Below the pieces are notes generated by a model. That model saw only the letters and a list, made by a program, of their open reading frames with translations, was not told the DNA's origin and ran no database searches. Below are positions 26,681 to 27,734 of a DNA stretch of 31,262 nt, one piece after another. The stretch spans positions 1-31,262 of IMG/VR virus record IMGVR_UViG_3300046538_000288; one strand, 5' to 3'. The DNA is from a virus. Position numbers and translations under genes: made by a program. Each line of letters starts with the position of its first letter. Positions within the stretch are counted from its first letter, which is position 1.

Positions 26681-27734
26681 GCGTAGCTCCTCCCGTCAAT
26701 CCTGCAATCGTCGCCGCACGTGCCGCAGCGCGCCCTCCTGCACCGACCCCATGGAGCGGCGCACGGGCGCCTGCTATCGCCATCGTCGTTGCCTCGCGTG
26801 CCCAGCGCTCCAGAATCCCCTTCACGTAGCCCAGGCTCAACGAGTCGCCCTTGCTTCGCCGGCCTTCCGCACACGCTGCTGCGACCGTGCCCACGGTGAC
26901 GCCCTGCGCGGCCATAGCGATCAAGCGCGGATCAGCTGGTTGCGAATTGATGCCATGCTTACGAAACTCGATGCTGAGCGCTACCGCCCCGCGCGCTGGG
27001 TCTTCGCTCAGTGTTGGCTGGGTTGGGGGTGTACCTTGGTTCTGGTTCTGGTTCTGGTTCTGGTTCTGGTTCTGGTTCTGGTTGGCTTCAGCGATTGGCA
27101 TCCCCGGTTCATCCCCGCTTGCACCGCGATTGAACCGCGGTTGAACCGCGGTTGCATCGCGGTTGCATCCCGGTTCAATCGCGGTTGCATCGCGGTCGAA
27201 TTGCGGACCAACCACGCCCTTCGCCCCAGGCATACCTACACCTACTGTCGCAAAATCGAAGCCGGGCTGTGGCGGCTGATTCAGGCTTGCAATGCGCTCG
27301 GCTTTCGCCAGCGTTTCCGGCGTATGGCCGTACTTCTGGACAAATTCAGCCAAGTGCCGCTCAGCGCCACCGATGTCGCCTGCCAGGATAGCGACATTGA
27401 TCCGCTTCTCTTCAGCCGTCCACGCTTTGGCACGGCCACCGGCATTTGCTGCGCGCAGGTTTTCGTGATATGCCGCGATTTCTTTATCGCAAACCGGATT
27501 GAACCAGCCGCGCTCCGTCAAGACGAAGAAGTCATCCAATACGTTTTCGGCGGCCGTAATTTCTTCAGGAGTGACCACGAGCAAACGTCGGAACAGCTTC
27601 GCCTTGTCGGCCAGCAGCGGCTGCTCGGTCTCGAAGTAGAGATCTCGCATATCGCGGTAGATACCGCGCTCTAGGCGCGTCAAATGCCGCGTGGCCAGAT
27701 TGAAGTCACCCATATGGTGAGGGTAATAATGCAT
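26625..27734 (-). CDS. DUF1376 (YdaU-like) replication protein carrying internal repeats
   Basis: A 369-residue protein. Residues 1-90 are a DUF1376 domain (MHYYPHHMGDFNLATRHLTR, LERGIYRDMRDLYFETEQPL), a winged-helix-like module common in phage replication initiators. The middle holds three 11-residue repeats (about 172-208, pattern x-N-R-D-A-T-A-x-x-P-x) and then an (Asn-Gln)8 run (about 217-232). The C-terminal part (about 260-369) is helical and Ala/Gly-rich. It lies before a lambda-P-like loader, so it would be the O-like initiator. The repeats are iterons at DNA level and may be the origin. The ATG at 27734 matches the usual family start M-x-Y-Y-P. Confidence 0.82.
   Translation of the reverse strand: MHYYPHHMGDFNLATRHLTRLERGIYRDMRDLYFETEQPLLADKAKLFRRLLVVTPEEITAAENVLDDFFVLTERGWFNPVCDKEIAAYHENLRAANAGGRAKAWTAEEKRINVAILAGDIGGAERHLAEFVQKYGHTPETLAKAERIASLNQPPQPGFDFATVGVGMPGAKGVVGPQFDRDATAIEPGCNRDATAVQPRFNRGASGDEPGMPIAEANQNQNQNQNQNQNQNQGTPPTQPTLSEDPARGAVALSIEFRKHGINSQPADPRLIAMAAQGVTVGTVAAACAEGRRSKGDSLSLGYVKGILERWAREATTMAIAGARAPLHGVGAGGRAAARAATIAGLTGGATHDDANIIDITPSAADQLG
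27037..27084. repeat. Hexanucleotide tandem repeat (TGGTTC)n
   Basis: Seven perfect TGGTTC units and one variant (TGGTTG) in tandem. On the - strand they encode alternating Asn-Gln. A change in copy number would add or remove residue pairs without shifting the frame. They lie beside the 11-bp iterons. Confidence 0.95.
27104..27213. repeat. Array of ten 11-bp iterons, candidate replication origin
   Basis: Consecutive 11-bp units with consensus GCGGTTGmATC: 27126-27136, 27137-27147, 27148-27158, 27159-27169, 27170-27180, 27181-27191 and 27192-27202 are well conserved. Units at 27104, 27115 and 27203 are degenerate. The array lies inside the DUF1376 gene and, since 33 bp is 11 codons, it also gives an 11-residue protein repeat. 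Lambda places its O-binding iterons inside gene O in the same way. The origin role is inferred. Confidence 0.85.

Follow-up and report, generated by a model that had tools for sequence, protein, structure and literature searches.

Does the gene for a DUF1376 protein, a family labeled 'unknown function', contain a phage replication origin, or do the tandem repeats in its middle serve only the protein that they encode? The question arises from a linear viral record of 31,262 bases, the whole of which was analyzed and is here termed the window. Two of its genes are central to the answer:

26625-27734, minus strand: DUF1376 gene, proposed origin-containing replication initiator; 369 amino acids, PF07120 at E 1e-26, matches to PHROG primosomal protein families
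25979-26680, minus strand: P-like helicase loader gene, directly downstream of the DUF1376 gene; phrog_109 at E 7e-14, with a weak match to Pfam Phage_lambda_P (E 0.023)

DUF1376 was the sole significant family found for the first of these genes in a Pfam scan. A CI-like repressor gene on the plus strand is followed, on the minus strand, by genes for a small DNA-binding protein, a CII-like protein, an unknown ORF, the DUF1376 protein and the P-like loader, an order which, as judged from the predicted products, is that of a lambda-style early operon. The protein at the Cro position (28745-29059, minus strand) has a PHROG DNA-binding match at E 4e-20 and is weakly similar to YdaS (E 0.005) and P22 Cro (E 0.02). 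The unknown ORF between the CII-like and DUF1376 genes (27746-28147, minus strand, 133 amino acids) showed no match to Pfam or PHROG. Among the matches listed, the nearest full-length relatives of the DUF1376 protein come from Massilia, Pseudoduganella, Duganella and Janthinobacterium genomes, and the phage therefore probably infects a member of the Oxalobacteraceae.

In many relatives the neighborhood of the DUF1376 gene is similar. For 102 such genes, the downstream ORFs include 34 that group with the P-like loader of the window, 18 that group with DnaC-like loaders and 6 that group with DnaB-like helicases, so that about 58 of the 102 are followed by a loader- or helicase-like gene. A switch in GC skew near 27 kb was also considered as evidence for an origin and was dropped; skew is negative across the whole window, with no switch at the repeats, and is uninformative either way.

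The repeats in the DUF1376 gene comprise two arrays and a spacer:

27104-27213, minus strand: ten iterons of 11 bp (coding-strand consensus CCGCGRTKCAA), of which seven are well conserved; the period is shared with relatives, whose iterons have other sequences
27084-27103, minus strand: spacer of degenerate iteron-like sequence between the iterons and the hexamer array
27036-27083, minus strand: eight AACCAG/AACCAA hexamers, an NQ repeat in the protein; proposed unwinding or single-strand recognition element

Read on the plus strand from 27104, the first five iteron units are CCGGTTCATCC, CCGCTTGCACC, GCGATTGAACC, GCGGTTGAACC and GCGGTTGCATC, and the last five, up to 27213, are GCGGTTGCATC, CCGGTTCAATC, GCGGTTGCATC, GCGGTCGAATT and GCGGACCAACC. 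The consensus GCGGTTGMATC occurs exactly in 3 of the 10 units and with no more than two mismatches in 7. Tandem Repeats Finder detects it with periods of 11, 22 and 33 (about 27098-27206), and the best 99-nt stretch of the entire window at a lag of 11 is at 27098, with 71 of 88 positions matching; no more than 44 matched in any of 200 dinucleotide-Markov surrogates. The hexamer array, found by the same program as 7.8 perfect copies of TGGTTC at 27037-27083, lies 3' of the iterons in the coding direction.

An earlier, sequence-only reading of this DNA had described about ten 11-bp units within the DUF1376 gene, seven of them well conserved, and unit-by-unit matching and the surrogates bear this out. 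It had also equated 11 bp with one helical turn, placing every site on the same DNA face. The sites are indeed near-phased, but the unit exceeds the 10.5-bp turn and the register drifts by about 17 degrees per unit. Finally, it had noted the TGGTTC hexamers as flanking the iterons; they are present there, but rather than a mere flank they form the second half of the element.

In the protein, two ordered regions lie on either side of the part encoded by the repeats:

27417-27734, minus strand: codes for the N-terminal DUF1376 domain, a modeled winged helix proposed to bind the iterons; AF2 model, pLDDT 91.5
26765-27000, minus strand: DNA for the helical C-terminal domain (about residues 245-323), proposed partner-binding part; confident helices at residues 246-318

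Between them, residues 162-243 mostly have pLDDT below 50 in the full-length model and are predicted to be a disordered linker; the repeats encode about residues 175-233, all within it. The N-terminal model has winged-helix topology, with weak structural matches to the winged helices of ORC2, DnaD and Rep proteins (Z 4-6); the individual scores of 4.7 to 4pt7 (an initiator), 4.6 to 5kbj (a Rep-DNA complex) and 4.3 to DnaD 2vn2 are below the reliable range. The C-terminal domain matched the helical lid of AAA+ ATPases, a result set aside as uninformative.

A disordered linker is also what would be expected if the NQNQ.. and 11-residue repeats had arisen by replication slippage and been tolerated or selected as flexible, low-complexity protein. 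Low-complexity stretches of NQ, PE and PT repeats are common, and unrelated genes carry the hexamer as EPEPEP, at most of 118 loci among the matches listed. To distinguish protein from DNA as the object of selection, we compared the repeats among relatives. A total of 156 DUF1376 ORFs was collected from viral contigs and bacterial genomes, of which 105 were non-redundant; all counts given here are of samples, and the redundancy filter (12-mer), the nearest-neighbor measure and the definition of the array are choices of our own. One pattern used as a seed in the first round was NQNQNQNQ, and results are therefore given separately for the subset of genes found by N-terminal seeds only.

We defined an array as three or more consecutive AACC motifs at a spacing of 5-8 bp, in practice 6 or 7. 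Such arrays are present in 88 of the 105 non-redundant genes and in 48 of the 63 found by N-terminal seeds only, against 0.25 genes per set expected after codon shuffling. With the looser criterion of an ACCA tract, 93 of 103 full-length genes qualify (0.15 after codon shuffling). The spacing is 6 bp in 47 of the 88 genes, 7 bp in 21 and mixed in 20, and variants of the motif include ACCAAC, ACCAAT, CCCAAT, ACCCAAT and CAACAAA. The 6-bp arrays encode NQ, EP or TR. In the 7-bp arrays the motif occupies each of the three frames (36, 30 and 32 occurrences), giving peptides such as NQEPITNNHKP and NQEPITNN. One DUF1376 gene (L113) carries the hexamer array in antisense, (GGTTCT)n, which encodes GSGSGS. 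With every reading frame in use, and once the antisense strand, the short array must be a DNA element, and the NQ repeat of the DUF1376 protein its by-product.

The array can also be found with no reference to protein. When 2.9 million viral contigs were scanned for a run of four AACCA motifs spaced at 7 bp, at least 120 loci were returned; among the matches listed, 112 of 120 cross a DUF1376 ORF, 102 of these being non-redundant, and the DNA upstream of the array at these DUF1376 loci shows the 11-bp period (lag-11 identity 0.48). At least one locus outside the 112, L350, appears to be a DUF1376 gene truncated by its contig end. A scrambled control, CAACA at 7 bp, met DUF1376 genes at 15 of 120 loci among the matches listed and so is not a clean control. 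In nearly all of these 15 the array is of the CAACAAA type and the 11-bp iterons are strong (lag-11 identity 0.595, compared with 0.29 at the other 105 control loci among the matches listed). A DUF1376 lineage within the L528-L643 subset has such a CAACAAA array, spaced at 7 bp, and immediately upstream of it a clear 11-bp iteron, NNNAACCCANN. The hexamer alone was rejected as a marker of the family: among the matches listed, 22 of 118 (AACCAG)4 loci and 28 of 120 (ACCAAC)4 loci lie in DUF1376 genes, and many of the other hexamer loci encode EPEPEP and the like.

The 11-bp period is likewise a property of the family, with 3-10 tandem iterons per gene. Over the 66 nt upstream of the array in the 88 genes, mean identity is 0.47 at lag 11, 0.42 at lag 22 and 0.43 at lag 33, and 0.21-0.30 at the remaining lags. 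Resampling synonymous codons from each gene's own usage gave a lag-11 identity of 0.357 +/- 0.006, so that the observed value has a z of 20.5; the excess is also present in the subset from N-terminal seeds only (z 15.2). In control windows, the initial 198 nt of these 88 genes, lag-11 identity is 0.26. The signal peaks just upstream of the array and fades to nothing about 130 nt away. It is individually significant in 58 of the 88 genes and not in the other 30. As a positive control, the lag measure applied to lambda gene O peaked at 23 (22-24), the known iteron spacing. The iterons themselves are specific to lineages, as in GCGGTTCAACC, TGCGCGAACAG, GCCGTTGAACA, TGTCACGG.. and AATGCTCAAGC, with the 11-bp period held constant.

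These comparisons contradict selection or tolerance of the repeats as protein, which we now consider extremely unlikely: the 11-bp period exceeds what synonymous resampling allows (z 20), AACCA occupies all three frames of the 7-bp arrays, unlike peptides result from different frames and from the antisense case, and a search by DNA alone returned DUF1376 genes at nearly every locus listed. The sequence-only reading had suspected selection at the DNA level and suggested synonymous sites among relatives as the place to look; both the period, kept with different iteron sequences, and the array, kept across reading frames, agree with it. It had named intact relatives without repeats as the case against an origin here, and these do exist, as a minority (e.g. 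L250, L271 and L272). A minority of DUF1376 genes has no recognizable array. In a held-out set of further DUF1376 genes from genomes and phage records, 21 of them new and non-redundant, an AACC tract was present in 11 and a CCA tract in 16, and lag 11 was the best of lags 4-23 in 11.

Several departures from the common pattern were observed. Some copies of the TGTCACGG-type iterons in L204, L205, L213 and L218 are inverted (CCGTGACA), and their spacing is less regular than 11 bp. The (CCAACA)n arrays of L229, L231, L235 and L240, which encode PTPTPT, have upstream of them palindromic units of the ATGCCACGGCAT type instead of plain 11-bp direct repeats. Five initiator-like phage proteins with no significant Pfam match (L064, L149, L081, L127 and L131) have AACCAG arrays in PE, RT or antisense SG frames, and the array may thus reach beyond DUF1376. 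A Vibrio phage record marks a 'CRISPR spacer' in the repeat-bearing, linker-coding part of its DUF1376 gene (L275:1861-1890), likely a false call on origin repeats.

The two arrays appear suited to different tasks. An iteron period of about one helical turn is what would be expected of sites bound in double-stranded DNA from one face. The mixed 6- and 7-bp spacing of the short array does not fit face-phasing, and would suit opened or single-stranded DNA. Among the segments compared the short array is the richest in AT (0.57, the gene as a whole 0.42; in the window 0.52 and 0.40). It is richer than its own gene in 98.9% of the 88 genes, and by stacking it is on average the least stable segment. 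Its coding strand is 86% A+C, a strong strand bias that follows in part from the definition of the array. Two other meanings were considered and discarded. Primase CTG sites are present in (TGGTTC)n and lost from 7-bp arrays such as AACCAAT. A two-tier G-quadruplex motif on the T/G strand, GG(N1-7)x4, is found in 84 of the 88 arrays, but simply because CC recurs every 6-7 bp.

The repeats, their conservation as DNA, their fixed order and position, and the genes around them are observed directly, and most related genes, from many bacteria, share this layout. Position, anatomy and gene neighborhood lead us to infer, in support of the lambda-like intragenic origin proposed by the earlier reading, that the linker-coding section of this initiator gene very probably holds the two-part origin of a temperate phage, at which the initiator would bind, the array would open and helicase would be loaded. 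Modeled on lambda, pSK41, RK2 and the DnaD recognition element, the process might run as follows. DUF1376 copies would bind the 11-bp iterons through their N-terminal winged helix, one per helical turn, and form a nucleoprotein array. Opening would follow at the neighboring A/C-biased run of AACCA, where the duplex is less stable than elsewhere in the gene. The initiator or the loader would keep the T/G-rich strand, with TGGTT every 6-7 nt, single-stranded, and loading of the host DnaB helicase would fall to the P-like protein.

Direct-repeat arrays are used in iteron plasmids for autoregulation and copy control as well. The iterons might accordingly be operators on the replication operon, for the DUF1376 protein or a repressor, or a site of incompatibility or handcuffing, with replication starting elsewhere, and the location of the element in an early operon, between the CII-like and P-like genes, would suit such a role. 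However, the element is 500-700 bp inside the gene, away from the promoter, its iterons are paired with a low-stability array on the same side, and true origins occupy a like position in lambda O and pSK41 RepA_N; we judge a purely regulatory role very improbable. The repeats could also have been kept as sites of recombination, at which the N- and C-terminal halves of the gene are exchanged, and one N-terminal domain is in fact joined across the array to several unlike C-terminal domains. Such exchange has no need of a fixed 11-bp period, and lineage-specific iterons would hinder it between lineages. Furthermore, iteron type tracks the N-terminal domain, as a binding site would: iteron and N-terminal similarity are correlated (Mantel r 0.27, p 0.0005; partial r 0.23 given the C-terminal domain), whereas the partial r for the C-terminal domain given the N-terminal is 0.07. 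The correlation is modest, and common descent accounts for part of it. We give maintenance for shuffling almost no credence.

More tentatively, the 6/7-bp array could be the phage counterpart of the DnaD recognition element (DRE) and the DnaA-trios, steering strand-specific loading of helicase by a DnaD-like DUF1376 protein, and together with the iterons could constitute a general origin signature; we hold this somewhat less probable than its negation. If true, the signature could be read from sequence across a broad set of phages, temperate as well as lytic, and the low-complexity peptides NQNQNQ, PTPTPT, NQEPITNN and their like in phage proteins would be translated origin DNA. The very probable two-part origin by itself would give the family a function and a mechanism, and let origins be read from sequence alone in very many prophages and phages of the Burkholderiales, Acinetobacter, Moraxella, Vibrio, Pseudomonas and others. 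It also offers a testable two-part code, in which the iteron sequence varies by lineage and the 11-bp period and 6/7-bp array stay constant, and a case of a low-complexity protein repeat dictated by a function of the DNA.

In the open-licence literature searched, we found no paper linking DUF1376 with an origin or iterons, and none on 11-bp iterons of prophages. One close functional parallel is the O-some of lambda and Stx phages, with origin iterons within gene O and an easily opened tract on the same side (PMC7466680). Both systems place iterons in the initiator gene between the parts encoding two domains, then the tract, with a P-type loader gene next. The initiator families differ, Phage_rep_O in lambda and DUF1376 here, and a Pfam scan of the window's proposed initiator gave no significant match to Phage_rep_O (PF04492). 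Lambda has four inverted-repeat iterons of 18 bp at a spacing of 20-24 bp, in contrast to the tandem direct repeats of DUF1376 genes, and its opening tract is 78% AT, with no short regular repeat, whereas DUF1376 genes have the A/C-rich array; the low-stability tract directly beside the iterons of the window, at 52% AT, is weaker than that of lambda. Only two Phage_rep_O loci, in one of 185 genomes, made up the comparison set, which was therefore not used as a statistical control.

The iteron plasmids RK2 and F, with initiators TrfA and RepE, are similar in that tandem iterons adjoin a repeated opening element. Their origins are outside the rep gene, their iterons are longer and their initiators are of the Rep_3 type. 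In RK2 one strand of the opening element is bound by the initiator (PMC4081077). The core of the DRE in Bacillus subtilis oriC consists of pairs of 5'-TnnT-3', a short motif repeated on one strand of the opened origin and bound as a single strand (PMC10201434). In DUF1376 genes TGGTT, the complement of AACCA, contains TGGT, a TnnT, which recurs in most arrays, and TnnT is only mildly enriched (0.306, compared with 0.254 in shuffles). B. subtilis oriC is chromosomal and opened by DnaA, and DUF1376 or the loader may or may not bind single strands in this way.

In pSK41, a RepA_N plasmid, the Rep boxes are central in the rep gene, and the origin doubles as coding sequence for the linker that joins a winged-helix N-terminal domain to a helical C-terminal one, with a fold that resembles DnaD (PMC5703833). 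The DUF1376 candidate is likewise central in its gene and encodes a predicted disordered linker. RepA_N plasmids, in contrast, are Gram-positive, and the text consulted on them describes no code of 11-bp iterons with a 6/7-bp array (PMC5703833); a Pfam scan of the window's DUF1376 protein gave no match to the RepA_N domain. The DUF1376 element thus appears to work like the origins of lambda O and RepA_N, which it resembles neither in sequence family nor in iteron type.
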